In this document: positions 3,291-24,643 of the stretch, piece by piece
Position numbering within the stretch: the stretch's first letter is position 1
Layout of the letters: each line of letters opens with the position of its first letter
NCBI RefSeq assembly: GCF_019649055.1
Contig: NW_026570637.1
Coordinates: forward strand, 1-24,643
Reading direction: 5' to 3'
DNA: 24,643 nucleotides
Source of the DNA: Paramacrobiotus metropolitanus
Taxonomy: Eukaryota; Tardigrada; Eutardigrada; Parachela; Macrobiotidae
The notes under the pieces: model-generated
What the model was told of the DNA's origin: nothing
The model's database searches: none
What the model saw: only the letters and a program-made list of their open reading frames with translations
Program-made: the position numbers and the translations under genes

Positions 3291-3365
3291 TGCGGGCCAG
3301 GCACAGCTGGCGTCCGTGCTCCAGAAGCTCCAGCGGGGACCACCACCAACCACATCTACAACGTA

Positions 3366-3518
3366 GGACGAAATGGTCGCATAGCCCCATACCCAGCATT
3401 CTGTACGCATGCGGTGCAGTGCACTTGTACGAACCGGATATTTTGAACTTAGCCGTACAGTGTACTGCACTGCATTCGTACTGAATGTGGAGATGTTGGG
3501 TATGCGACCATTTTGTCC
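3366..3518. mobile_element. Palindromic MITE, Tc1/mariner-like, TA target duplication
   Basis: The terminal inverted repeats begin ggacgaaatggtcgcata at 3366 and end tatgcgaccattttgtcc at 3518, with one mismatch in 18. Complementarity continues inward through gtgcagtgcac/gtgtactgcac, so nearly the whole 153 bp folds back. It is flanked directly by TA on each side (3364-3365 and 3519-3520), the target duplication expected for Tc1/mariner-superfamily elements. It encodes no protein, so it would depend on a transposase supplied elsewhere. Confidence 0.8.
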
Positions 3519-3524
3519 TAAGCT

Positions 3525-3656
3525 GTACTTCGCGGTCCCGGTGTACACTTTCTACCCAACCGGGACGGCGTGCAACGCCGGCGGGGTGCTGGGACAAGTC
3601 GGGGTGGTTGGCGCCACTACGGCACCGACGTTCACCATTACCAGCACTAATCCCGG
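3525..3656 (+). CDS. Cadherin-like exon fragment
   Basis: A GC-rich frame reads from just right of the MITE through YFAVPVYTFYPTGTACNAG, then a VLGQVGVVGA strand, then TFTITSTNPG, and meets a consensus 5' splice site (cccg/gtaagt) at about 3656. The pattern of Tyr-x-Phe, Gly-x-Val and Thr-Phe-x-Ile-x-Ser strands is like a cadherin-type extracellular repeat, which mediates calcium-dependent adhesion. The upstream exon border is unclear because the MITE sits immediately beside it. No following exon is recognisable in the next kilobase on this strand, so the gene is probably broken. It could also belong to another Ig-like beta-sandwich family. Confidence 0.4.
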
Positions 3657-6429: not shown

Positions 6430-7233
6430 ATTATTAAAAACATTGCGACTAGCTATGGGGCTGTGCTGAGAGGGCAGATGAGTGCATAACCAGTGGCAGA
6501 GGAATAGTTTGTAGCGTAGGGTTTAATGCGTATTAAAGCAACCGATCAAATAATTTAGCGGTTGTAAGGTTAAAATTTTTTAATGTTTCTTATGTCTGAA
6601 ATGGCCGGGCACGTTTTCTGTCGTGTGGCACCTGTTGCTACAACATTTCAAGAAAGCAAAATTTTGTATTGAGAGAAATGATTGTACATTGGCCAACTGC
6701 ATGAAACTGGGGGCATTACAGACAATAGAAAACGTGACACTGTTTATTCGGCAATACTTTTGCGCGATGCTGAAGTTGTGGAGACAGTTTCGCGGAAGTT
6801 AGCAAGGTATCTAGAGGATATTTCCATATTGTATTACTACGGTTTACGTATGTCAGTAATGGTACAGTACGTAACGGTAAATTTTGTGGTCCCTGGACGT
6901 CGTCCGGTCACCTTGGGTCGGAAGTTTAACTTCTGCAGACGATTCTGTAGGTCGATATCAGTGTGTCTATCAGGTGTACGAAAACGGATATTGTAGTACG
7001 TGACTTTACGGATGTGAGTAATTTCGCATTCACAAATAGTCTAAGCTCCGGTCCCTGGATGTTATGCGGTCAACCAAGAGGTTTTTGTGGTTGGTTAATG
7101 GATTTATTTTTAATCATGAAAGTCAAAATACATTCGTCAGTTTTACTGAAAAATGAGGATTTTAATCATGACGTATTTTGATATTATTAATTGACCAATA
7201 TTTGGCTGTCTTGATTGTTACTTATTTGTCAAT
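6430..7233. other. Stretch upstream of the GIY-YIG gene
   Basis: I find no ankyrin repeats or LEM domain here, although both precede the nuclease domain in animal LEM-3/ANKLE1 proteins. The longest open frames have no ATG or no recognisable domain. Any promoter of the gene at 7234 would lie here. Confidence 0.4.
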
Positions 7234-7752
7234 ATGACTAGCTATGTTTATGTTCTTTGCGATTTAAAAGATTTTCACGTCTCTTTTGACAGATTTGTTG
7301 CTTGTGTTTTTTACATAGGGAAAGGTTCAAGAAATAAAAAGACTTATGATCGACCCGGTGCCCACATGAGGATGGCTCGGAAACCCTTCGTCGTTAAGGT
7401 AATGGGAATTTTAGTAAATGTTTTTATTGACTTTTTTGTTCGAAAATTTGAATTGAAGCGGAATTGTAAACTCAACACAATTCAACAAGTATGGCGGGAT
7501 GGTGGGGCGGTTACTGTTATTTCCGCATGTGAAAATTCTTCGTCAGAAGCTGCTTGGACTGCAGAGGCGTGCTTAATTCGTCACATCGGATTGAAGAAGT
7601 TAACTAACCAGAGAAATGGTACTTTTAAATACGTACCATATGGATTCAAAGTTTGCGACATACCGAATCGCGCGAACGTACTTCTTCGGAAGTTATATCA
7701 GGAATATCGTTGTGGGAAAATTAGGCGGTATACCCGAAACGGCAGAAATTGA
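7234..7752 (+). CDS. LEM-3/ANKLE1-type GIY-YIG endonuclease
   Basis: Encodes a structure-specific DNA nuclease domain of the GIY-YIG fold. Visible motifs in order are the GIY strand (Y4-V-Y6), the YIG strand FYIGKG (Y27, G29), a His/Arg helix (H44, R46), KLNTIQQVWRDGG (79-91), the catalytic Glu in AEACLIRHIGL (E111), and LTNQ with N125. The spacing and the pair VWRDGG / LTNQRNG match the metazoan LEM-3/ANKLE1 branch, not SLX1 or Penelope GIY-YIG domains. Residues 56-75 do not fit the family and coincide with a GT-AG stretch of exactly 60 nt (7399-7458, aag/gtaatg...gaag), so this is probably an in-frame intron. Family members resolve DNA bridges and branched DNA and carry ankyrin and LEM parts that are absent here. 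It may be a free-standing gene or the last exon of a longer one; an acceptor-like gactag sits just before the Tyr codons. All catalytic residues are kept. Confidence 0.75.
   Translation: MTSYVYVLCDLKDFHVSFDRFVACVFYIGKGSRNKKTYDRPGAHMRMARKPFVVKVMGILVNVFIDFFVRKFELKRNCKLNTIQQVWRDGGAVTVISACENSSSEAAWTAEACLIRHIGLKKLTNQRNGTFKYVPYGFKVCDIPNRANVLLRKLYQEYRCGKIRRYTRNGRN
7399..7458 (+). other. Putative 60 nt in-frame intron
   Basis: It begins gtaatg after AAG and ends ttgaattgaag, is AT-rich, contains no stop in frame, and encodes the only part of the GIY-YIG protein that does not align with its family. The length matches the 58 nt intron inferred in the RPA-like gene. Confidence 0.5.
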
Positions 7753-8143: not shown

Positions 8144-10184
8144 TACATTTTAATGACATTTTACACCAAATAACTGTGATTCACCACTTGTAAAACAGCG
8201 TTTATACAGAAAAACAATCGTAAAAGAGAAACGTAGACACACGCCAAGAAAATTAACATAACCATAAATTTATAACCAAATGCCATTAATTTATAACCAG
8301 CCTGTTATGTAACTGAGAGGTGATTCGGACGTAGACTGGTAACAGATCGATATATTTTCAAACGGGTGGATTCCGTGGTGTCCGATGGAAAATGGGATTA
8401 TGCAAAAGACTTTGTACCAATGCATACGCTATTAATCGGCGGCGCAAAATGGGATTATGGATTAATAAGCACAGCGTGGAGTCCATCGTTATTCAAGTGG
8501 AGTCCATTGTAAAGGCGATGGAAAATTAGATTGTCTACAAAATGCAGTTAAAGTAAGTTCGGTTATTTACTAAATTATAATAAATTAAACCAAAGTAAAT
8601 TACACAATAGCAGAAACACAACTGTGATTAATGTAGTATCAAAAACCGTCAATTTGGAGAATGGTTTTGGGAAAAATTAGTTAAGAGGAATTTAGTAATT
8701 CCTTACCCATATTTTATAAGCCGCACTTCTGATTTAAAACGTGTGAAAAGAAAAACGAGTTTGACTAAATTCGTTGAATTTTGAAATTGCTTTTTAGCTT
8801 AAACGGTAAATAAACGCTAAAACGTTAAAAAACGTTAAACGTTAAAAAACTTCAATTATTTACCTGGAAGGTGCTTTTAGACCACCACATATTCATATAT
8901 TATTACCTATTCGTATGTACATGGACATGGTTGTCGGCGAAGCCCCAACCCGACTTTGAACAGCTCCCGCGAATTTCGGGATGGAGGAGTTGCTGTAGTA
9001 GCTTCTAGGTACTTCTAGGAGCGGCGATCAATTCTGCGGCAATAACATCGCTGGTTTATCAAGATAGCTTCTCCAAAGATATTGTTGGAAATCGTAATCT
9101 TTAGTTTCACCTGCAGAAGGTACATGTTATTGGAGCTACCACAACAAATCGTTTTAAGTTATTTTAAAACCGTGGGGTTATTTAAAAAGACATACCACAA
9201 CGTTTTAAAATTAAAGGTTTTCTTCCATATTTACCTGAAAAGGTAGCAGGATGATGCAGATGATGCAGAGAAGGATCGAAACTTTAGACATTTTTGATAA
9301 CAAGAAGTTGTATTAAGTAAGAAATTTTTTCAGATATCGGTTCGATACTACATGCGGTGTCGAACACGGCTGTCTTTTCTTTTTTTCAGAGTTTGTAGAA
9401 ATACGGTTGGTGGTAATGATATTGCAAATCGTGTTCACTGAGTGTCTCATTTGATTGGTTTGTTAGTGATTAGTAACTCAACGAAATACTTTGGCCACGC
9501 CAAAAATGCTTAATTCCTAATCTCGGAAATTTAATTGCTCTGAAGGAATTTGATGATTAAGTTTAGGCAAGTTGCATTTGTCGGTAGACTTTTGAAGAAG
9601 TAATTGTCTTTGGCTACAGACCGTTGCATCCGTTTGTTCCTGTCGTTACCGTCGTTAGTTCTGAACGTCTGCAGCAAGGTCTTGTAAATGACCATTCATA
9701 CCAGCTGGGGCGTTTTCGTGAAGACGATCTAATCGTTCAGTGTTCTGGTCGGTGTTAATGAGTTTGGCGGTCTGTCTCAACTAATTATGGGAATAATAAA
9801 GTTAACCGTCCATGCTGTCTCTTATAAATTGTTCAGTCGCTTAGTTAATGTCATTGACAATGCAGTGGTGAGGGTGTAACTAAGCTGATTTCGCTTTGTA
9901 GTAGTACCGCCCAGCTATTAACCAGGAAACATTAATTGCCTATAAACGTCTTTTTACATGTGGACAGGACAACTATACATTATTTTTAAAAAAGCGCGTG
10001 GCGTTCTGCCCATCCAAAATTGATTAATGTGGCGCATTTGTGGGAGTACGTTTGTGGGAACCAGCTTTAAGTGTACTGTCCGAAAAATGCCATTAACTCA
10101 ACTTAAACAGTTTCGTTTACAATTACAATAGTTTTATTTGCAATTTAAAATTAAGTGGTTGCATTTATTCACTACAAATAAGAA
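8144..10184. repeat. Long tandem repeat, unit 1 (A-X-B)
   Basis: The unit has part A (8144-8956), a 552 bp segment X (8957-9508) and part B (9509-10184). A and B are repeated in the same order at 10211-11692 with a few per cent divergence. Part A contains internal direct repeats: aaaatgggattatg twice, gtggagtccat twice, an attaatttataacca-type pair, and a run of aacgttaaa. No open frame is kept intact in both units. There are no terminal inverted repeats that I can see and no transposase, so this is a non-autonomous repeat or a segmental tandem duplication. Confidence 0.85.
8957..9508. other. Segment X, present only in unit 1
   Basis: Unit 2 passes directly from part A to part B at about 11022-11024. 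The junction shares only ctt/ctta with the two borders of X in unit 1. This fits a microhomology deletion in unit 2 better than an insertion in unit 1, because X has no terminal inverted repeat. X starts with an imperfect palindrome (cccgcgaatttcggg) and carries cttctagg twice at about 9000-9020. Confidence 0.7.
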
Positions 10185-10210
10185 CCTCGAATAGAAATAA
10201 GAACCTTGAA
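10185..10210. repeat. Junction between repeat units
   Basis: Together with the end of unit 1 it gives aaataagaacctcgaata followed by aaataagaaccttgaata: an 18 bp tandem pair with one mismatch, exactly at the seam between the two long units. Confidence 0.6.
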
Positions 10211-11692
10211 TACATTTTAATGACATTTTACACCAAATGGCTTTCATTTACCACTTGTAAAACGGCGTTTATACAGAAAAAACAATCGTAAAAGAGAAAC
10301 GTAGACACACGCCAAGAAAATTAACGTAACCATTAATTTATAACCAAATGCCATTAATTTATAACCAGCCTGTTATGTAACTGAGGGGGGATTCGGACGT
10401 AGACTGGTAACACATCGATAATATTTTAAACGGGTGGAATCCGTGGTGTCGGATGGAAAATGGGATTATGCAAAAGACTTTGTACCAATGCATACGCTAT
10501 TAATCGGCGGCGCAAAATGGGATTATGGATTAATAAGCACAGCGTGGAGTCCATCGTAATTCAAGTGGAGTCTATTGTAAAGGCGATGGAAAATTTGATT
10601 GTCTGCAAAATGCAATTAAAGTAAGTCCAGTTATTTACCGAATTATATTAAATTAAACCAAAGTAAATTACACAATAGCAGAAACACAACTGTGATTAAT
10701 GTAGTATCAAAAACCGTCAATTTGGAGAATGGTTTTGGGAAAAATCGGTTAAAAGGAATTTAGTAATTCCTTACCCATATTTTATAAGCCGCACTTCTGA
10801 TTTAAAACGTGTGAAAAGAAAAACGAGTTTGACTAAATTCGTTGAATTTTTAAATTGGTTTTTAGCTTAAACGGTAAATAAACCTTAAAACGTTAAAAAA
10901 CGTTAAACGTTAAAAAACTTAAATTATTTAGCTGGAAGGTGCTTTTAGACCACCACATATTCATATGTTATTACCTATTCGTATGTACATGGACATGGCT
11001 GTCGGCGAAGCCCAAACCCGACTTAATTCTTAATCTCGGCAATTTATTTGCTCTGAAGGAATTTGATGATTAAGTTTAGGCAAGTTGCATTTGTCTGTAG
11101 ACCTTTGAAGGAGTAATTGTATTTACCTACAGACCGTTGCATCCGTTTGTTCCCGTCGGTAATTGTGGTGCGTCGGCGAGAAGCAAGGTCTTCCAAGTGA
11201 GCATTTATACCAGCTGTGGCGTTTTCGTGATGAGGATCTAATGGTTCAGTGTTCTGGTCGGCGTTAATGAGTTTGGCGGTCTGTCTCAACTAATTATGGG
11301 AATAATAAGTTAACCGTCCATGCTGTCTCTTATAAATTGTTCAGTCGCTTAGTTAATGTCATTGACAATGCAGTGGTGAGGGTGTAACTAAGCTGATTCC
11401 GCTTTGTAGTAGTACCGCCCAGCTATTAACCAGGAAACATTAATTGCCTATAAACGTCTTTTTACATGTGGACAGGACCACCATGCATTATTTTTATTAA
11501 AGCGCGTGGCGTTCTGCCCATCCGAAATTGATTAATGTGGCGCATTTGTGGGAGTACATTTGTGGGAACCAGCTTTAAGAGTACTGTCCGAAAAATGCCA
11601 TTAACTCAACTTAAACAGCTTCGTTTACAATTACAATAGTTTTTTTTGCAATTTAAGATTAAATGGTTGCATTTATTCACTACAAATAAGAA
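10211..11692. repeat. Long tandem repeat, unit 2 (A-B)
   Basis: Direct copy of unit 1 with part A at 10211-11024 and part B at 11022-11692, offset 2067 bp in part A. It lacks segment X. Part B holds a minus-strand open frame of about 80 codons (11289-11044). The same frame in unit 1 is readable for about 40 codons before a stop, with many amino-acid changes, so I do not call it a gene. Confidence 0.85.
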
Positions 11693-12161
11693 TAAAATAG
11701 GCATGAAACTATAGCATTGCTTTGAAATGAATGGGATTGAAAGTAGCCAACTATGTATTCGTAATCAAACCCGTTTACCTTGTGCAAAAACTTAATTTTT
11801 TTAATAACTTACGTATTCTCCAAAATATTCAGTTCTAAGTTATCATATCGCAACCGTATATTTTTTTGGTAAGTTTCCTATTTTTTCAAAATTTATATCC
11901 GAATTTTTAACTTTGATTGTATTATCAGATGCAAAAAAGGAAATTCCGGTTGACGCGAAATGGGGATTATGATCATTTTTATGGTATTCATATGATGATT
12001 ACTGTTAAAGCACGTATTAGCAAACATCATGAAGCTGCTTAGCAATGTGCTGTATCCGGCGTGCCTAAAAATGAGAAACGTATTTTTGGCGTCTCTTTGC
12101 TTTAACAGTGCCAACTAAACATGAGAATTAACCAGATAACATACGGTACGGAAGCGCGGTG
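11693..12161. other. AT-rich stretch without recognisable features
   Basis: No gene supported. A 73-codon minus frame (12114-11893) has no domain that I recognise. Confidence 0.45.
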
Positions 12162-12227
12162 ACTATTTTAAAACTACTATTATTTCGCGAACTAAAGTAA
12201 TTACTTTTAAGGCAGTTTTAAAATAGT
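12162..12227. other. Nested hairpin (left)
   Basis: A 14 bp perfect outer stem (actattttaaaact at 12162-12175 with agttttaaaatagt at 12214-12227) encloses a separate perfect 14 nt palindrome, aaagtaattacttt, at 12194-12207. The architecture, an outer stem around an inner 14 nt palindrome, is the same as at 22005-22052 on the other side of the Helitron genes. Confidence 0.7.
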
Positions 12228-13070
12228 AACGGTATCATGATTGTGTTTTGATATGTGGTTAACAGTCCGATCGATTTGCGACCTTTACCATTTTTTTGTT
12301 TGTTCGTTGAATCATTGCTTACCTACTCACATAGCGGAGACATTTTTATTCTGTTAACGCTAAATTTTAGTAATGAATACGGTAATGCTATCTACCATCC
12401 CAGCTGACGCCACTTGTCTAACCGAATGAAATTTATGATATTAAGTTGTAATAAAATTCCTTATTTTTAGTATCATTGATTTTTGTTTTTTTGACTAATC
12501 GATTTCGGATGTCATCTTAATGAACTTGGACAACACATCATCTAATTATTTTTTTAGCCGATATTTTTGAATTTATACATTTAACACTGCAAAACGGATC
12601 CAACAAGCACACGCTGTCACTTCCGATATTTTGTTGTCATATTGACATTAAGTACACTGCAAAAACACATTCATGAAATCCAAATGCAATTTCGATAGTA
12701 AACAATGTCACACGCAAATGCTAGATGAAAATAGTAACTGCTAAATGAAAATGCTAAATGCGTTAACCGAATTTTTTTTGGAATTTTTAAAATAAAACTA
12801 AAAATACGATGTCGTACCAATCCAAATTTAAACAACCCCCATCCACTCAAAAGACCAAGGTACATAAGATATGTATTAAATGAAATCCACAGAGCTAAAG
12901 GAGTAGTATGAGGATGCTGAGTCCGTACTAACCGAAATGAATCCTATCAAAGTGCAAATTTCACAGCGTGGCATTCTTTTAGGAGTAATCAGGACGTACG
13001 AGTTCCACCAAGTGTTATTTCCTCAATGTTGCCTGCGCAATCATGATTTGTCAGCATACATGTGCAAGAC
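12228..13070. other. AT-rich stretch downstream of the RPA region
   Basis: No gene supported. It contains short gctaaatgaaaat-type repeats at about 12716-12765. If the Helitron extends to the left hairpin, this is its 3' non-coding part. I could not find a convincing CTRR terminus. Confidence 0.4.
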
Positions 13071-14429
13071 CCAAACTTGAAAGGATTTATGATCTGGTAT
13101 AGTTTATTCAGTACGTAGTACATATGTTATAACTTTTTTGTGCGTAACCAACAAGTAATACATTGATACCATTCATAATATTCTACTTGTAACAACGTAC
13201 TCTTTCTACTTACTTCTACAAGTAAGTTGGCTTCAGTGACCCAGTCATTTTCGTCCGCGGATGTTATTTTCATTTTTCCGTTCTGCAAAACACATTTGTT
13301 CAGTGTTGTAAATGTTTCACAATTAATAGCTTTGCGGATCACCTGGTGGTGGTGGAACTGCTGCTGATGGCCCGGCATTCAGCGCGTCAGTCGGTTTATT
13401 TTTCCCACCACTTTCCGCTATAAACGACAATTATTATTATCAAATGTTTTAGGTTGCTGATTCTGAGTTATTTTCAAACCTTTTTCCATTTTGATCCAGT
13501 ACCAACGAATAGACGGCCCTTCCTGTTGGAATCAAATATTATTTGGAAAAAAGCTTTAAAATCAGCTTACTTTTCATCTTACATATATTATTTACGGCGC
13601 CCTTAGACCACTGGCATTTCAAGATATTTTTCGTGATGGTCGTCCAGTCGTAATCAGCGTTCGGTATGGCGTTAGCAGGGCCGAAAAACGCAGACAATAT
13701 TTCGTTTCCAGCCAAAACAGTTAACTCCCCGGTCTTATCGTGAAGCGTCACCTTTCGAAAATAACGGACTTTTTACAACACAAGGTAGTGACGGTTCTCG
13801 TATAACACAGTCAACAAACTTAACAACAGAGTGATTGTTGTGTAATATCCCATTAGTTAAAAGTTATGTTATACTATTATATAATAGCGTTAAGGTAGTG
13901 TTACAATCATCAGAAAATAAGTGTAATGATTTTGTTATACTTATTTTTCTAATTATAGGTATTCGCTAAATTCAGTTTATCATGTTTTCGCTCCTTTTAC
14001 TCGTTTTCTTACCTGCATCTGCTTGTAAGTGAGTTTTTATTCCCGGATTCGGTTTGACATCCAGAACAGAATATTGTACCGTTTTCTGGGTCTTCCAACA
14101 GCTTGCTCTCGCACAATCCACAAAAGCTTTCCATCTCCACGGTGCTTAAATCGACAACCCTTGCAGCGCAGTGCACGACCACGTATGCCGTCGGCTTTTG
14201 GTAATTCACTGTAATATCGGTATGTTGCGCGATCGTAACAGCCTTCAGAAACCCTGAAACATGATTATATGAATTTATAAAGCAAAGTTCCTTGTCGAAG
14301 CTACTTTTAATGCTAATTAAGGCTTAAGCAAGGTACGAACAAGATATCTTATTAAAGGTCTTCTGTGTCAGTATTGAAAAGAAGTACCTTTTTCTTCTCT
14401 TTTTGTGATGTCCATTCCGTATCCAGGAT
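13071..14429. repeat. 1.36 kb tandem duplication, copy 1
   Basis: Identical to 14430-15789 by eye except for three one-base differences in homopolymer length (T run near 13400, T run near 13480, A run near 13860). It begins at ccaaacttg. It carries duplicates of RPA exons 2, 3 and 4 (about 14013-14253, 13581-13751 and 13420-13522) and the last 40 bp of exon 1 (14388-14427), all on the minus strand. Confidence 0.9.
13420..14427 (-). pseudogene. Duplicated RPA 3' exons (2', 3', 4') without exon 1
   Basis: A second set of the zinc-ribbon exon, the OB exon and the terminal exon lies downstream of the functional set, with only a 40 bp stub of exon 1 and no start codon. It has the same frame break in exon 2' (A5 run near 14036). 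In exon 4' an extra base near 13480 changes the frame after QNGK. If the first stop were skipped by splicing, exon 2' could be reached from an upstream phase-1 donor, giving a protein with a doubled zinc-ribbon domain; nothing here shows that this happens. Confidence 0.6.
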
Positions 14430-15789
14430 CCAAACTTGAAAGGATTTATGATCTGGTATAGTTTATTCAGTACGTAGTACATATGTTATAACTTTTTTGT
14501 GCGTAACCAACAAGTAATACATTGATACCATTCATAATATTCTACTTGTAACAACGTACTCTTTCTACTTACTTCTACAAGTAAGTTGGCTTCAGTGACC
14601 CAGTCATTTTCGTCCGCGGATGTTATTTTCATTTTTCCGTTCTGCAAAACACATTTGTTCAGTGTTGTAAATGTTTCACAATTAATAGCTTTGCGGATCA
14701 CCTGGTGGTGGTGGAACTGCTGCTGATGGCCCGGCATTCAGCGCGTCAGTCGGTTTATTTTTTCCCACCACTTTCCGCTATAAACGACAATTATTATTAT
14801 CAAATGTTTTAGGTTGCTGATTCTGAGTTATTTTCAAACCTTTTCCATTTTGATCCAGTACCAACGAATAGACGGCCCTTCCTGTTGGAATCAAATATTA
14901 TTTGGAAAAAAGCTTTAAAATCAGCTTACTTTTCATCTTACATATATTATTTACGGCGCCCTTAGACCACTGGCATTTCAAGATATTTTTCGTGATGGTC
15001 GTCCAGTCGTAATCAGCGTTCGGTATGGCGTTAGCAGGGCCGAAAAACGCAGACAATATTTCGTTTCCAGCCAAAACAGTTAACTCCCCGGTCTTATCGT
15101 GAAGCGTCACCTTTCGAAAATAACGGACTTTTTACAACACAAGGTAGTGACGGTTCTCGTATAACACAGTCAACAAACTTAACAACAGAGTGATTGTTGT
15201 GTAATATCCCATTAGTTAAAAAGTTATGTTATACTATTATATAATAGCGTTAAGGTAGTGTTACAATCATCAGAAAATAAGTGTAATGATTTTGTTATAC
15301 TTATTTTTCTAATTATAGGTATTCGCTAAATTCAGTTTATCATGTTTTCGCTCCTTTTACTCGTTTTCTTACCTGCATCTGCTTGTAAGTGAGTTTTTAT
15401 TCCCGGATTCGGTTTGACATCCAGAACAGAATATTGTACCGTTTTCTGGGTCTTCCAACAGCTTGCTCTCGCACAATCCACAAAAGCTTTCCATCTCCAC
15501 GGTGCTTAAATCGACAACCCTTGCAGCGCAGTGCACGACCACGTATGCCGTCGGCTTTTGGTAATTCACTGTAATATCGGTATGTTGCGCGATCGTAACA
15601 GCCTTCAGAAACCCTGAAACATGATTATATGAATTTATAAAGCAAAGTTCCTTGTCGAAGCTACTTTTAATGCTAATTAAGGCTTAAGCAAGGTACGAAC
15701 AAGATATCTTATTAAAGGTCTTCTGTGTCAGTATTGAAAAGAAGTACCTTTTTCTTCTCTTTTTGTGATGTCCATTCCGTATCCAGGAT
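14430..15789. repeat. 1.36 kb tandem duplication, copy 2
   Basis: This copy is continuous with RPA exon 1 and is therefore the one the gene would use. The sequence just past its end (tcagacttgg) resembles the start of each unit (ccaaacttga), so the duplication probably arose by unequal exchange or template switching at this short imperfect homology. Confidence 0.9.
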
Positions 15790-16186
15790 TCAGACTTGGT
15801 ATGAAATAACAGCTTCCATCGCCGCTTGGCTTCCCAGCCTGAACGGTTCCCCTCTCAAATCGAAGCAAATAGGTGCAACCGACGCATAACTGCTCTCCGT
15901 ATGATTTCAGAAACTGTTCGTTTATCCACATGGGCAATATAACAGTCCCATCTGCAAGGGTCACCGATTGGAACTTCCCACCGGTCCCACCGCTTTTGCG
16001 CGTTCGGATTGGCGTCTTTTCAGCGATCGTAACAGTCAGCGTAAACCTAGATGAATGTACTTTCGTTGTTGCCAAGGTCAAACTATGTATGATGACCGAC
16101 ATTTGTAACCTGTCTGGTTTTTTCACAATCAATTCTGCAACTGAAAAGGCGGCCGGTGATCCTTTGAATTTTTTTGGGGACGCCAT
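14778..16186 (-). CDS. RPA1-like ssDNA-binding protein of the Helitron, multi-exon
   Basis: Likely coats single-stranded DNA during rolling-circle transposition. Exon 1 (16186-15748) starts at ATG 16186 and holds an OB-like domain (FTLTVTIAEKTPIRTRK ... VTLADGTVILPMWINEQFL). Intron 1 (15747-15614) has gtactt/tttcag borders in phase 1. Exon 2 (15613-15373) reads into FLKAVTIAQHTD and the zinc ribbon CGLC...CSGC (C-x2-C-x12-C-x2-C), as in the third ssDNA-binding domain of RPA1. Exon 3 (15110-14940) continues the OB fold with VTLHDKTGELTVLAGNEIL. A 58 nt intron (14939-14882) leads to exon 4, which reads YSLVLDQNGKGLKITQNQ and stops at TAG 14778-14780. The frames of exons 2 and 3 join only if one A is missing from an A5 run near 15395; the rescued end TYKQMQ then leads straight into VTLHD. 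Borders are inferred from sequence alone. More coding-like frames (a proline-rich tail and a segment with NGKMKITSAD) lie at 14570-14760 and could be further exons. Confidence 0.7.
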
Positions 16187-16276
16187 TTTTCAAAGTTTGG
16201 GTGTCGGATAATTTATCATGTTTTTTTATAATTGAAGGTCGCAATCTTATTAAAGTTCTTAGATTTTTTTAGTTGT

Positions 16277-17674
16277 TCAGTTCTTCAACAGAGTTTGTAG
16301 GCGACGAATTTCACAAAGTGCGGCTTTAGAATAGGCAAACGATTCTGGCGTATAATCTAGTAATATAAATGCCGAGCTATTTGGGAATCTCGAGAGCGCC
16401 ACGTAGAAACCACCCTGTGGCCTACACTTTCCAAAGTTTAAGTCAATTGCACCACTCAGTATAGTCGCCCCTTGGGACTTGTGAATTGTCATTGCATACG
16501 CAAGAGATACGGAAAACTGAGTTATTCGTATTGATGATTTATTTACGCCATAAAACCAAGACGTCGTTGGTGAAATTATAAACGGCTCAGTGTTGCCGTC
16601 GAACAAAATGCTGATACTGCTCGGCATTTTGACCTTTATGGTGCCTTCCAGATTGACTTCCGAACACGCACAATCAAACAACTCAGGCACATTGCTAGCG
16701 GCCTGATTGTCACCTTTGAACCATAATACGTCAATCAGCGTTCCCATAGCACCGTTCACTAAACCACTATTTACATCAACATTTTGTGTCAACATTATTC
16801 TGCATCCTTTAGTAAGATAAACATGCTCGGCAAGACCACCAGTCTTTTTCGAATCCTTTGATGGCTTTAATGAACCCTTACAAATCTTACTCTTGCTGTT
16901 TTTCCCACTATCGCGTACATCTTTAGCTTTTATCTCATATACGGGTACCCCCGAATTTTTTGCTAACTCGCAAAGGGCATTGTGATTGAAGTTCTGTGTG
17001 CTATTTACTCTATAGAAAAGATGAAGACCATTCCTAAATTTATCCTCGTACTCTTTTTGGATTTCTCTCCAACCAGTAGGGTTTACATTTGGATTAAGAC
17101 ACCGTTTTCGCAAAAGATTGTCAAACTCGGCAGAAAGCTCCCCATCTCTTAAGGAGTTCAACCCATCACGAAAACTGTCGTCCGATACCTGTCTCATGTT
17201 TATTGGGAAGAACACAGGTGTAAACAGTTTCCACAGATCTACGAGTTCACCAGATTTCTCGAAGATAAATTTTGCTTGTACCGGACGCAGTTGGAATAAA
17301 TCTCCAAAAAAAATTACAGGAACATCGCCAAAAAATACACCTGGCGTATTTATTTTATCTCGAACTTCGTTGAGACGTTGGTGAACTTGATAAAATAATT
17401 TCCGCCCTACCATTGATATCTCATCAATTACCAAAATCAAGCTCCCATCTAATTTATTTCGTAGATTGTAAGTTTTTGTCCGGTAGCCACACGATAATTC
17501 TGAAAAGAACCGTTTTGGACATCCAATCCGAACAATTCGTGCAAGGTTGCACCCCCAATGTTGTGAGCTGCGCACCCTGTCGCAGCCGCCAATAAGCATC
17601 CCGCTTTGTGTCTGGCCATAGATAGTATTTTTTTTTCTGCTATGACAAAATTTTTTATAAGCTTTTTTATACAT
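16277..17674 (-). CDS. RepHel PIF1 helicase, C-terminal half
   Basis: The genuine part begins at about residue 68 (TYNLRNKLDGSL); the first 65 residues are out-of-frame shadow of the Walker A half. Motif II (Walker B) is LVIDEISMVG (D84, E85), motif III is GDLFQLRPV (124-132), motif V is AYAMTIHKSQGATI (392-405) and motif VI is FYVALSRF (423-430). The ATPase and helicase motifs are therefore all present when the two halves are combined. It ends RRLQTLLKN, a normal C-terminus for the family. The RPA-like ATG follows 90 bp later on the same strand, so the two genes may share a transcript or a short intergenic promoter. Confidence 0.9.
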   Translation of the reverse strand: MYKKAYKKFCHSRKKNTIYGQTQSGMLIGGCDRVRSSQHWGCNLARIVRIGCPKRFFSELSCGYRTKTYNLRNKLDGSLILVIDEISMVGRKLFYQVHQRLNEVRDKINTPGVFFGDVPVIFFGDLFQLRPVQAKFIFEKSGELVDLWKLFTPVFFPINMRQVSDDSFRDGLNSLRDGELSAEFDNLLRKRCLNPNVNPTGWREIQKEYEDKFRNGLHLFYRVNSTQNFNHNALCELAKNSGVPVYEIKAKDVRDSGKNSKSKICKGSLKPSKDSKKTGGLAEHVYLTKGCRIMLTQNVDVNSGLVNGAMGTLIDVLWFKGDNQAASNVPELFDCACSEVNLEGTIKVKMPSSISILFDGNTEPFIISPTTSWFYGVNKSSIRITQFSVSLAYAMTIHKSQGATILSGAIDLNFGKCRPQGGFYVALSRFPNSSAFILLDYTPESFAYSKAALCEIRRLQTLLKN

Positions 17675-18654
17675 TTTATTAAATATGTCTTACCGCACCC
17701 AGCCGATCCTTGAACAAACAAACGAAAGGGCTCTATACGGTCTGGCTGTTCTCCAGCCGCCAATTTTCTACGTTCTTGCAGCAGACGATGGAGATACGAT
17801 TCAACCATCTCATAAACCGCGTTTTGCTCTGATGTGAATTTGCTCTTATCGATTACTTCGGAATGAAAACATTCTTCTCTTTCATCAAGATCTAACAACG
17901 AGCTGTCATTCAAAGCGGCATGTTTTTTCTCAGCAAAATGCTGACTTTTCGTTCCGATCGATCTGACATAATCATTTTGCTTAACCATTTCGAGTTCCAA
18001 AAGTATCATCGCTTTGTACGTCTCTGGTAACAACTCGGCATTTGCAGTTATAACCGGAATTAGTTCCCTAAATGCTGACAAAAATTCGTCGTCATTTCCC
18101 TGCAAATTGTATACTTCACTAACTTCATCACCAAAAGGCAAAGTTAGCATGCATATTCCGTAAAGCTTCTCACGAACATCTTTGCTGTTTAATGCAAATG
18201 CGACATTCTTTGGTATTCTACGCATTTTCAGTTTCGTCCCCTTAGCAGTCATTATTCGCGCAAGGCAGTGACCTTTTACTGAAATAAAGGGTGGGGCATT
18301 CTCTTCTAATTTCCACAACGGGTTTTTCTTAAAGTCCGTTATCTCGAAAACATCATTTTGATCAATATCTTCTTCATCAACATTCTCTTCTATGCATTTC
18401 TTCTTTTTGGCATCAACAACAAACCATTGCAAAAACTCAAAAAGATTTAAAGATTTGAGAAAATCATTAACTTCTTCATTGTTCCATCTCGATATACGAT
18501 TAATATAATTCGTTAGCATGGTAGGTACGAAGTCTGTCTCCGAAAACGTTGCTTTGCAGGACGTATTACGCTTCAGCAATTGGGACCTGCCTTCAACGCT
18601 TTTCAGATCAACATAAACCGATGATGTCGAGCAATAGTATTTCAAATAGGGCAT
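17449..18654 (-). CDS. RepHel PIF1 helicase, N-terminal half
   Basis: 5'-3' DNA helicase of the PIF1 family fused to Rep. From MPYLKYYCSTSS the frame covers the linker between Rep and helicase, then motif I (Walker A) GSAGCGKT at residues 316-323, and motif Ia CLLAAATGCAAHNIGG at about 353-368. It then runs into a stop just after GQKLTIYEIN. Before residue 1 the protein continues in another frame (ILKCP) up to about 18650. The acidic stretch at 85-105 (EENVDEEDIDQND) is a likely disordered linker. The C-terminal 10 residues are shadow sequence after the A5-run shift at 17473-17477. Confidence 0.88.
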   Translation of the reverse strand: MPYLKYYCSTSSVYVDLKSVEGRSQLLKRNTSCKATFSETDFVPTMLTNYINRISRWNNEEVNDFLKSLNLFEFLQWFVVDAKKKKCIEENVDEEDIDQNDVFEITDFKKNPLWKLEENAPPFISVKGHCLARIMTAKGTKLKMRRIPKNVAFALNSKDVREKLYGICMLTLPFGDEVSEVYNLQGNDDEFLSAFRELIPVITANAELLPETYKAMILLELEMVKQNDYVRSIGTKSQHFAEKKHAALNDSSLLDLDEREECFHSEVIDKSKFTSEQNAVYEMVESYLHRLLQERRKLAAGEQPDRIEPFRLFVQGSAGCGKTYLIKCIKKLIKNFVIAEKKILSMARHKAGCLLAAATGCAAHNIGGATLHELFGLDVQNGSFQNYRVATGQKLTIYEIN

Positions 18655-18794
18655 TTCAAAATAATCATCGCCGCCTCAACCTTTCCAACCTGTCTATTAG
18701 ATAGTACAGCATTTGCTGCTTTAAAAAGCGTACTTTGAATAGTACACTTGTCATTTGGGTCGTTTACAGTTTTCTCAAAAACTTTCTTCAAAAT

Positions 18795-19760
18795 TTACCT
18801 GTCCTTCTGTTCTGGCTTTGCAACATAGTTAAATAAGTACTCCATTGCTGCCCAAACATCGCACACAACTTGCACATCCATATTGCATCTAAACAATTTC
18901 AGCCAGCTGACGTTATATGGAACGATATCCATAGATTCATCTGTTAGTCGCCGTAACGTAATTTCCTTATCCCCTTTAACGCGGTTTTTCCGTTCTTTTG
19001 ATGTCAGAAATCTTGTCCTTTCTGATTTTATATGAGGATAAACAAATCTACATAACATACGTTCTACCGTAACATTCCGTTCCTTTTGGTTCCCAGAAAT
19101 TTTTTGTTGATCATTGCAATTACAACTACTTTCACAAATTTCTTCCCTATCTACTTCCTCATCAGTCTCAGACGCTATACTAGTTTCTGCAACCGTCTCG
19201 CTGATGCTTTTCTTACCCAACGGGTTCTTATTCCCCCTGAAAACCTTTTTGCCTTTGCGACAAGTAAACGTATGAACATGCTTCTGAAACTTCATCACCA
19301 AACTCTTTTCAATTTCATCTGAAGGAACCTCGGTAGTTAAGAAGCTATCCAAAAATTCGGTTGTCTTTTGCTTTCCACTTTCACGTTCGTAATTAAAGCC
19401 CACATTAAGCCATACCACACTATGTAAGTGCGGGTAGCCAGCCCGCTGAAATTCAATCTTTGTAAACACATCTTTTGCATAAATACCATTTGGAAAAGCA
19501 CCCGAGTTTTTCGATTTCAAAAATGTTACAAAACTCTCCGCTCTACGTTGAAACATTTTTGCAGCGATTCCACAATTATCATTAATGACCCTCAGAATTT
19601 CTTCATCCGCAGCACTTTCTAACTTTTCTAACACTGGGTTTTGAATATCTCCATATATATCTGGTCGAGCGTAACAAAGCAGTTCTGGACAATACCGTAA
19701 ATTTATGCTTACAAACAGTTGTGGTGGTCCTTTGCATTCAAACATGTTCTTCATTTGCAT
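18795..19760 (-). CDS. RepHel Rep nuclease domain (HUH, Y2)
   Basis: Catalyses nicking and strand transfer in rolling-circle transposition. Numbering from the first Met of this frame, the HUH motif is EFQRAGYPHLHSVVWL (H111 and H113, codons at 19430-19422). The two catalytic tyrosines of the Y2 motif are in EYLFNYVAKPE (Y308 and Y312, codons 18839-18837 and 18827-18825), with the usual four-residue spacing. All catalytic residues are intact. Between them lies a longer acidic/cysteine insert (about 200-260) with CESSCNCNDQQ. The frame stops at TAA 18795-18797 right after EQKDR. Homology continues beyond in the same frame (KTVNDPNDKCTIQSTLFKAA, then NRQVGKVEAAMIILKCP), so the stop is a lesion or part of a pair of compensating shifts. 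Confidence 0.9.
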   Translation of the reverse strand: MQMKNMFECKGPPQLFVSINLRYCPELLCYARPDIYGDIQNPVLEKLESAADEEILRVINDNCGIAAKMFQRRAESFVTFLKSKNSGAFPNGIYAKDVFTKIEFQRAGYPHLHSVVWLNVGFNYERESGKQKTTEFLDSFLTTEVPSDEIEKSLVMKFQKHVHTFTCRKGKKVFRGNKNPLGKKSISETVAETSIASETDEEVDREEICESSCNCNDQQKISGNQKERNVTVERMLCRFVYPHIKSERTRFLTSKERKNRVKGDKEITLRRLTDESMDIVPYNVSWLKLFRCNMDVQVVCDVWAAMEYLFNYVAKPEQKDR

Positions 19761-20611
19761 TTTGCCCTATCGTAGTATGCCTGCGTCCCTCGCAACGCCG
19801 CACCTACTTTTGGGCACAAAAACCGCGAAATATCAAGGACAGCCTCCTTGCCCTCTGCAAACTTTTCGGCTTCTTTCAGTACATAATTTATCTCTTTACG
19901 CATTAATTCCCTTTGATATACGTTAAGGCATCTGAAAACATATGAAGAATCTTTCTGAAATCGATTATCCTTACTTAGCAACCGAATTTCAAAATACTTT
20001 CCGTAATCAACATGGTATTCTCGATTATCTTCAACACCTCCATAACCATAAGGAAATAAATTAGGGTAACATTTTTCTTCTACTCCACTGCTGCTTCCGA
20101 AGTTGAAGATAGGCACATTCTGATAAGGAAGGGTTCGTTCTGGTCCCATAGTAAATTCTTCAGGAATAACATCACCAAAACTTACCAAAGCATGGCTATC
20201 GTGCACGTCTATTCTGACTAATACCTCAGCACGTATTTGATCATTATAGTCAGTATTATCTCGCACCCTCACATTTACGTTTTTATAATACCTATTATTT
20301 GCCAATAAACAATTCAGTGCCCGATAAACGGTATCATTATCAACAGAATAATGCGCTGTCACCGCATGTTCTCCTTTTAGCTGATTGACTGCTAATAAGC
20401 AATCAGATATTGGTACCGGAAACAAGCTGTTGACGCATTTTGTCACATCTGATACGATATGCAAAAACTGTCCTGCCGAATGCGGCATACTTTTAGACCG
20501 AAATAAAATCGTGGAGAAAGGAAATATCATCCTTATACACTGTAACTCCATGTATCCCAAGTTTAACTCGTCAACCTTGCCCCCGGGACTTAAATTATTT
20601 AATGCAAAACT
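19751..20611 (-). CDS. RepHel Helitron-like N domain
   Basis: This frame starts inside the protein (FALNNLSPGGKVDELNLGYM) and needs no start codon of its own. It contains ELQCIRMIFPFSTILFRSK, matching the xxExxLIxxxxPF segment that opens the Helitron-like N domain, and later the hallmark LFPYGYGGVEDNREY, followed by YFEIRLLSKDNRFQKDSSYV and NVYQRELMRKE. This domain precedes the Rep nuclease in all Helitron RepHel proteins and probably helps recognise element ends. The frame is lost at about 19755 (caaaatg, apparently one A short); the next segment continues with MQMKNMFECKGPPQLFVSIN, the expected GxPxxFxxxS region. Confidence 0.85.
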   Translation of the reverse strand, partial: SFALNNLSPGGKVDELNLGYMELQCIRMIFPFSTILFRSKSMPHSAGQFLHIVSDVTKCVNSLFPVPISDCLLAVNQLKGEHAVTAHYSVDNDTVYRALNCLLANNRYYKNVNVRVRDNTDYNDQIRAEVLVRIDVHDSHALVSFGDVIPEEFTMGPERTLPYQNVPIFNFGSSSGVEEKCYPNLFPYGYGGVEDNREYHVDYGKYFEIRLLSKDNRFQKDSSYVFRCLNVYQRELMRKEINYVLKEAEKFAEGKEAVLDISRFLCPKVGAALRGTQAYYDRAKCK

Positions 20612-21345
20612 GCGGTAGCAAAACTCCCTTCCCTCCCACGGTTCAAATTTTCACATTCATGGCACAATACACAATCAACTGGTAGTTCTGGATGACCTAC
20701 ACCATCATTTTTTGCACACTGATCTGTTCTTTCAACAACAAAACAACACTCGCATTCTAAATATTCAACATAAACCGACCTTATATATGCTGATCCAATT
20801 TTTTCCCCCACCTTGAACTCTTTTTTACGATTATTTTTCCGACAATTTTTTAATTTCGCCCTGTACTCCCGCATATACAACTTTCGTTTTTCTTTTCGGT
20901 CTGCTGTAACACCACGAACTTCCTCTTTTTTTTTGCACTGCACTCCTTATAACGTTCGGTTTTTTTTTGTGCCCGGTACCGCCGCATATACTCAGTTCGA
21001 TTTTTGTTTAGCTTTGTTGTGACAACCTGGTTTATTTGGGTTCGGTCAGCCTCGTGCACCATCATATCTTCCCCACAATTACTGCTGTTTGAAACGGGCA
21101 TTTCGATGCTATCGCCCAATCCTCCCATTCTTTTTTTTAAAAACATTTCTTACAGACGACTTGATAACCTTCTCAGTCTTAGCCGACTTAGCTTTTACTG
21201 TTATTCCCTGAGTTTTACTTTTTCTATGCGTAATTTTCCGCCCATCGGAACCATTACGCCGAGCAGCCTCATCACCTTTTAGCAGGTTTTTCGAACCATA
21301 TTCACCATACTCTGGTATACTTGCTCTTGATTCCATTAAGAGCAA
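20599..21345 (-). CDS. RepHel N-terminal region (basic repeats and Cys cluster)
   Basis: Three overlapping frames give one continuous region: a lysine-rich leader (21345-21135), then EYMRRYRAQKKTERYKE, then LYMREYRAKLKN (two copies of a YMRxYRAxxK motif seen as a basic DNA-contact element at the start of many Helitron proteins), then a Cys-rich segment with YLECECCF and VDCVLCHEC that would form the zinc-binding N-terminus. Frame changes fall in the A-runs near 21135 and 20935. It ends in GREGSFA, where the 14 bp duplication at 20604-20625 throws the frame; the same words SFA resume in the next segment as SFALNNLSPGG. Confidence 0.65.
20604..20625 (-). repeat. 14 bp duplication that breaks the RepHel frame
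   Basis: gcaaaact occurs at 20604-20611 and at 20618-20625 with period 14. Without one 14 bp unit the minus frame would run from the Cys-rich region into the Helitron-like N domain with no gap. Unlike the other breaks in this gene, this one is not at a homopolymer. Confidence 0.6.
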
Positions 21346-22084: not shown

Positions 22085-22636
22085 ATGCGTATTCGATATG
22101 CTACAGCGGGATATACGGCCTCAGTGCATGACAACCGTGTGTACTCAAATTGCAAATTAGCCACGAACGCCGCTAATTAATTTACTGATCAAGAGTATAT
22201 GCTGGGTGACAGCGCCTGTGCTATTTCACCAACGATGATGCCCGCCGTACAAATCCGCACGTAGCGCATTGAAGAAATTGATAATCTGCAGCATTCAAGA
22301 TTACGCGTGAAAGTTGAAAATGCATTCGGTTTGTTAAAAGGCCGTTTTCAGTCTTTGAAGGACTTAAAATTGATATCCGATGCCGGTCAGCACGTGCTCG
22401 TTGCAATTCCTGGATTCTGTGTGTTGTGTGTTGCATGCTGTGTGTTGCATAACATCCTGCTGGACATTGATTACTGTGATGAAGAATGGTATCAACTCAA
22501 AGACATCACTGAAGACGAAGAGGATAACATTTTATTGGATAACGGTCAGTTGAATGGGCAAGGTATGACAGACAAACAAAAAGGTGAACAAAAGAGAGAT
22601 AAAGTGAATGAATTTCTTATCGATTTTTTTGGTTAA
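22085..22636 (+). pseudogene. Harbinger (PIF) transposase, 5'-truncated, two stops
   Basis: A single plus frame from 22085 reads through the C-terminal two thirds of a Harbinger-type DDE nuclease. It starts MRIRYATAGYTASVHDNRVY with the Asp of the HD motif (22130-22132). It then has YMLGDSACAISP with the Asp of LGDS (22208-22210), and KVENAFGLLKGRFQSLK with the catalytic Glu (22316-22318), followed by CVACCVLHNILL and an acidic tail ending at TAA. In-frame stops lie at 22178-22180 (TAA) and 22262-22264 (TAG). The N-terminal part, with the first catalytic Asp, is missing: the sequence before 22085 is the hairpin region. No partner Myb-like ORF is visible. The copy is dead and looks older than the Helitron. 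Confidence 0.8.
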
Positions 22637-23621: not shown

Positions 23622-24563
23622 TTACAAAAACAACAGCTCGTTAAACATTTCGGCTTTCTCCACCGTGCCCAAAACAGAAACCGCATTACCACGCTGTATC
23701 TCTATGGACAAACGTTGTCGAAGAAATTCGTGCGAGCGGGCTTCTCCTGAGTGAGAACGTAATCTTTTCCCCAGTTCTTTTATGATGGCAATGGCCGCTG
23801 GTCCCCACGGGCCCATAGTTTCAAAAGCGATAGGTGTGAATATATAGCGGCCGTTTCAATAAGAATAGAACCTAGACTTCTTTTCTTCAGCCTGCAACGC
23901 GGCCGATCCCGCAATTGCCGAAGTAGATTTGATGTGGGAAGCGGCAATAGTATCCACGCAGGTGACATCCCATGCCAAGCACATTCCTCGCTGCCAGGCG
24001 AACGTTGTGCAGCCATCGGGGCGTCGTTCGTTGGTGTGGGAAGTGCCTCGGGGTTCAAGTTTAGCTGGGATTCCGGCTGATACAAAAGCCCGACATACGA
24101 TACTGTTAAGGCCACCATGTCTTGGGTGTCTGCCGGCGGAGAAGGTACAGGAAAGACCATGATGAGCGTATCCGTCGACCGGCTTTAAACATTTCGTGCA
24201 GTTGTGAGGTTCACAAATCCTGGCGCCGAGTCTAAGGCCTACTGAGATTTTCAGAGTGTCGTCATCGAGGAGGTTACCTATATGCGCGGAAGGCAACGCG
24301 TTAAGCCAAATGCCGGCTTCTGGTCTCGACTGGGCAAGCAGACGCGCCTTATTAATTTCATCATCCCGGTATACTTCTAGCAGGGCAGCCAGAGATACAT
24401 TAAACAATGGCAAATCCCATGCCTTCTGGGAATTGCGGAATTCTGGAACGGGCAGTTCTGTTAAACGGGCTTTTGCCTTCCACATTTCTAGAGCAACGGT
24501 AATGTCTGAAATCTCTCGACTGGGAAGCAACAGGCACGAGCACCGTGGGCGGAGCGAATACAC
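23622..24563 (-). pseudogene. Non-LTR retrotransposon ORF, C-terminal region
   Basis: The minus frame reads a conserved retroelement C-terminus: WLNALPSAHIGNLLDDDTLK, ISVGLRLGARIC, a CCHC finger (C122, C125, H134/H135, C139 in CTKC...HHGLSC), then AGIPAKLEP, RRPDG and CLAWDVTCVDTIAASH. The RPD...WDVT pattern (P182-D183, D199) resembles the restriction-like endonuclease placed after the reverse transcriptase in some non-LTR elements. An in-frame TGA (23856-23858) interrupts it. Beyond the stop the same frame continues with FTPIAFETMGPWGPAAIAII, then RLSIEIQRGNAVSVLGTV, and stops at 23622. Upstream, near 24530, the frame appears to shift once more (IRSAHGARACC in the neighbouring frame). The reverse transcriptase itself would lie past the right edge. 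The clade is not determined. Confidence 0.75.
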
Positions 24564-24643
24564 GACTGCATGTGATGGTCATTGGTCAGTACGGCTTCGT
24601 TAATAGTCAGTACGAGTACGGAGCAATCACTGCCTGTCTGTAA

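Follow-up and report, generated by a model that had tools for sequence, protein, structure and literature searches.

Does the locus described here bear the trace of a recent duplication within a transposable element, or has one and the same stretch been written twice during assembly? In the window, by which we mean the whole 24,643-nucleotide stretch of DNA analyzed, two head-to-tail copies of a unit were aligned globally, one at positions 13071–14429 (1359 bp) and the other at 14430–15789 (1360 bp), and showed no substitutions and three one-base differences in homopolymer length, as the preliminary description had claimed. Both copies are read on the minus strand: according to the alignment and the breakpoints, the copy at 14430–15789, called here the proximal copy, is contiguous with the first predicted exon of the gene involved, and the copy at 13071–14429, the distal copy, is a 5'-truncated gene fragment. 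The runs which differ are T5 versus T6 at 13399/14758, downstream of the exon 4 stop; T5 versus T4 at 13481/14841, inside exon 4, the frame of which is altered; and A4 versus A5 at 13859/15218, in intron 2. Identity ends abruptly at both outer edges of the unit. Self-BLAST of the window revealed no third copy, the matches elsewhere not exceeding 34 bp. A 1.36-kb match of this kind cannot be due to chance. Whether it is real or an artefact, the duplication was well spotted and correctly measured, and it belongs to an ordinary kind; the choice originally offered between a very young duplication and an assembly artefact was the right one: with no substitutions in 1359 bp, the divergence between the copies is at most 0.22% (95% upper bound).

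Read along the minus strand, the unit opens with 42 nt from the end of predicted exon 1 and the donor of that exon, followed by exons 2–4 and the 3' flank of a gene which, judging from its sequence, is likely to be RPA-like. Predicted exon 1 (15748–16186, 439 nt) is an open stretch running from an ATG at 16186 to a GT donor after 15748 (GTACTT). In the proximal copy, it is followed by predicted exon 2 (15373–15613), with a zinc ribbon of the form C-x2-C-x14-C-x2-C, by the OB-fold-like exon 3 (14930–15127, RYFRKVTLHD...) and by exon 4 (14778–14881), which is open to a TAG stop; an AG precedes each of these three exons and a GT follows each internal one. AATAAA motifs are present after the exon 4 stop (14754–14759) and 32 nt before the end of the unit (14462–14467). 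The distal copy is headed by the 42-nt tail of exon 1 (14388–14429), which has its own donor and shows no acceptor of its own, and then carries exon 2 (14013–14253), exon 3 (13571–13768), a stretch matching exon 4 (13418–13522), the frame of which shifts past the A run and meets an early stop, and the counterparts of the two AATAAA motifs (13103–13108 and 13395–13400). The zinc-ribbon, OB-fold and terminal exons said to be carried by each copy were therefore found in both, though the frame of the distal exon 4 differs; since this run-length difference changes the frame, the longer open C-terminus is kept only in the proximal copy.

The phases fit between exons 1 and 2 and between exons 3 and 4, where one extra base meets the two needed in each case. 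Between exons 2 and 3 there is a misfit common to both copies (two extra bases versus two needed), which is either older than the duplication or due to a consensus error in both copies or to misplaced exon edges. When joined manually, exons 2–4 matched Rep_fac-A_C in Pfam with an E value of 4.2e-4 (20.6 bits), and an alternative joining of exons 2 and 3 gave 0.0093 (16.2 bits); these two scores, which reflect two ways of writing the exon 2/3 gap, are both below the curated cut-off of 28.5. Neither exon 3 alone nor exon 4 alone had any Pfam match, and exon 1 (open frame 15728–16189) matched no Pfam family up to E 0.01. RPA was absent from the results of the PDB sequence search with the RPA-like gene, exon 1 included, and the single-sequence structure model of exon 1, with a pLDDT of 36, was too poor to be used.

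Upstream of this gene and in the same orientation, fragmented RepHel reading frames (16280–20650, minus strand) were identified with Pfam as DUF6570, Helitron_like_N, PIF1 helicase and Pif1 2B, and the element is therefore assigned to the Helitron type. Between the end of the helicase frame, at 16280, and exon 1 there are about 94 bp. The HLH in YPHLHSVVW, picked out by eye, is what we take to be the Rep HUH motif. Helitrons end in a 3' hairpin followed by CTRR, begin with a 5' TC and are inserted between A and T; in the script search of the minus strand from 10800 to 14000, no hairpin followed by CTRR was listed, and neither end of the element was placed. The location of the RPA 3' exons inside a Helitron, as first proposed, is thus likely: PIF1 scores of 38.3 and 31.1 bits in two overlapping frames exceed the cut-off of 25.9, but Helitron_like_N (E 1.8e-6, 28.8 bits) is marginally below its own (28.9), as Rep_fac-A_C is below its cut-off, and the ends are missing from the picture. 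We infer that the PIF1 and Rep parts once formed one frame, and the coding part of the element is broken as the sequence stands, with frame slips within 19766–19751, 18675–18642 and 17689–17449 of the minus strand. All three slips can fall in runs of three or more equal bases, which was considered as a sign of homopolymer errors and dropped as evidence, since such runs fill 27–44% of these stretches versus 24% of the region and the slips consequently say little. An in-frame TAA is also present at 18795–18797 (minus strand), between the Rep and helicase parts, and run length does not account for it. Two RepHel frames and exon 1 had no relatives among the viral contigs searched, and one helicase frame had none among the phages searched; the other helicase frame matched at least 18 loci in genome contigs, with 23–50% identity, all of them bacterial by title (17 titled MAG and one Psychrobacter).

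Several other features were noted in the window. An open frame at 7195–7752 on the plus strand (185 aa) carries a LEM-3-like GIY-YIG nuclease domain (Pfam, E 8.8e-22) and had no relative among the viral contigs searched. A fragment of a DDE_Tnp_4 (Harbinger-like) transposase lies at 22265–22636 on the plus strand (Pfam, E 6.4e-7), and an inverted repeat at 3357–3527, with 69-nt arms which are 77% complementary and 33 nt apart, is perhaps a MITE remnant. On the minus strand, a 240-aa open frame at 23856–24578 has no Pfam match; to the eye, it resembles a metazoan LINE reverse transcriptase in its C-terminal part. The kinds of transposon present in the window suggest an animal host.

An older tandem repeat, with a period of about 2.07 kb, is located near the unit; its copies (8144–10210 and 10211–11692) stand head to tail, and the second lacks 555 bp. 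The comparison between 8144–10184 and 10211–11692, made on an alignment trimmed where the BLAST matching stops, gave 87 substitutions and four indels, two of which are in homopolymers, in 1481 aligned bases (5.9%). At the rate observed in this older repeat, the probability that three differences out of three would be homopolymer indels is 1.1e-5, and it is 3e-4 at the upper bound of that rate. Compared with these 87 substitutions and four indels, the three differences in the unit are best attributed to consensus noise or slippage, and not to ordinary divergence. From the sequence, they are most likely to be consensus errors, and the copies may therefore be identical in the organism. A spectrum consisting of homopolymer differences only does not separate a real duplication from an artefact.

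The surroundings of the breakpoints bear on this point. Within ±15 bp of the crossover, the two breakpoints are alike at 18 of 30 positions, a value which 7 of the 250,942 other registers in their ±250 bp neighborhoods attain; the counts are 13 of 20 within ±10 bp (46 of 250,962 registers as good) and 11 of 16 within ±8 bp (71 of 250,970). Drawing 100,000 times at random from the window gave corresponding P values of 0.00016, 0.00034, and 0.00056. The similarity is restricted to the junction, as just outside the ±15 bp only 5 of 25 and 10 of 25 positions match, and in the 15-base core, compared by eye, 11 positions match and all four mismatches are transitions. The crossover itself sits between two mismatched positions, with an exact microhomology of 0 bp, and this speaks against a real event. 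The test was designed after the sequences had been inspected; a simpler score gave a P value of only 0.004, weaker than the register test, and gapped alignment of the 200-bp neighborhoods of the breakpoints gave nothing special, 54 of 500 shuffles being equally good. In the excerpts of a study on PLP1 copy gains (PMC6902434), microhomeology is defined as at least 5 bp with at least 70% identity and gaps of at most 2 nt, was present at 51 of 159 join-points, and is described for replicative template switching. The join-point here, where 11 of the 15 core bases agree (by eye), as do 18 of the 30 positions within ±15 bp, corresponds to this definition. Two further candidates were set aside. A G·T wobble pairing of 16 consecutive nt across the breakpoints is a post hoc observation and was given no weight; stretches as long occurred in 6 of 400,000 random draws, five of which were at least 36 nt long and probably represent repeats of the window itself. 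Nor does the sequence point to a ligation chimera at a GATC cut, because the junction creates a GATC (seen by eye) which is present in neither parent.

The fact that the breakpoints resemble each other would favor a real event over the joining of contigs end to end, where such a likeness is unexpected. The older tandem repeat close by also speaks for a real event. If contig or gap-fill ends overlapping by 1.36 kb had been laid end to end unmerged, one stretch would be shown twice; this is a possibility to be taken seriously, although we find it less probable than a real duplication. It is in line with the 0 bp of exact overlap at the junction and with copies differing in homopolymer length only, as against the 87 substitutions and four indels of the older repeat, but this spectrum would arise just as well from consensus errors in a real duplication whose copies are identical, and randomly placed breakpoints are not expected to fall in a patch of local similarity. 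Two haplotypes of an outbred invertebrate, moreover, usually differ by substitutions, which also counts against an artefact. Re-homogenization of an older duplication, with gene conversion or unequal exchange acting on its copies, is compatible with a single sequence devoid of substitutions; it is very unlikely, however, with identity reaching both ends of the unit and leaving no diverged edge, and with no third copy in the window.

The explanation which we favor, with moderate confidence, is that a 1.36-kb stretch at the 3' end of the RPA-like gene of a Helitron-type element was genuinely and recently duplicated in tandem, and we infer a template switch at the origin of this event. During DNA synthesis along the sense strand of the element (the minus strand of the window), the nascent end would have copied past the gene, ending in ...CAAGTTTGG; on the ancestral sequence, still in single copy, it would then have slipped back by 1.36 kb and paired again with the similar CAAGTCTGA close to where exon 1 ends, after which the stretch would have been copied a second time, giving the tandem copies. 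Since the proximal copy keeps exons 2–4, the stop and an AATAAA, exon 1 and the proximal copy together hold all the predicted exons; they would have retained the stop and the poly(A) signal, along with the exon 2/3 phase break. The distal copy would be a 5'-truncated fragment with no evident function, and is most likely to be a neutral one.

It is highly improbable that the slip took place during the rolling-circle replication of the element itself, that daughter insertions carry the duplication and that occasional skipping of the proximal exon 4 yields a protein with two zinc-ribbon OB folds. Least credible of all is a functional partial gene amplification leading to an RPA with two C-terminal domains. 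The proximal exon 3, with one trailing base, does join in phase to the distal exon 2, with its two leading bases, but the proximal exon 4 stop and an AATAAA precede the distal exons, the exon 2/3 phase break exists in both copies and would have to be crossed twice, the frame of the distal exon 4 differs, and the distal copy has no first exon. The doubled C-terminal domain initially envisaged is therefore unsupported, as it requires skipping of the proximal exon 4, read-through of the AATAAA and two passages through the phase break.

The duplication matters little on its own. If it is real, a clean microhomeology junction inside a rolling-circle transposon raises the question as to whether Helitron replication is prone to template switching; if it is an artefact, it marks an assembly site which needs checking and cautions against regarding sequences with homopolymer-only differences as young paralogues.

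In the excerpts of the literature on plant Helitrons carrying RPA, Helentrons and a proto-Helentron (PMC4067079, PMC4683698), RepHel-type frames are associated with an RPA-like gene located downstream on the same strand, as in the present element; the RPA-like gene differs here from those described in these excerpts in that it has predicted introns, the frames are broken and the ends are not placed. Helentrons are described there as having an endonuclease domain fused after the helicase (PMC4067079), and no endonuclease family was detected by Pfam in the present helicase frame at E 0.01. Mothra, a non-autonomous Helitron, likewise contains repeats within a Helitron, but its blocs consist, in the part of the source concerned, of several direct repeats, six of them in bloc A (PMC4683698), as opposed to the two-copy duplication of gene exons at this locus. 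Among the titles and opening lines of abstracts returned by the literature search, no report of a Helitron RPA gene duplicated in tandem as two copies was found.

PLP1 gains are far larger than 1.36 kb. The duplication analyzed here differs from the microhomeology-associated PLP1 cases attributed to FoSTeS/MMBIR, as presented in the excerpts (PMC6902434), in its 1.36-kb unit and in that its mechanism is proposed from the sequence. It resembles them in being a direct duplication with a clean junction and breakpoints lying in short, imperfect similarity, and in that the bases at the junction follow one parent at a time (PMC6902434).
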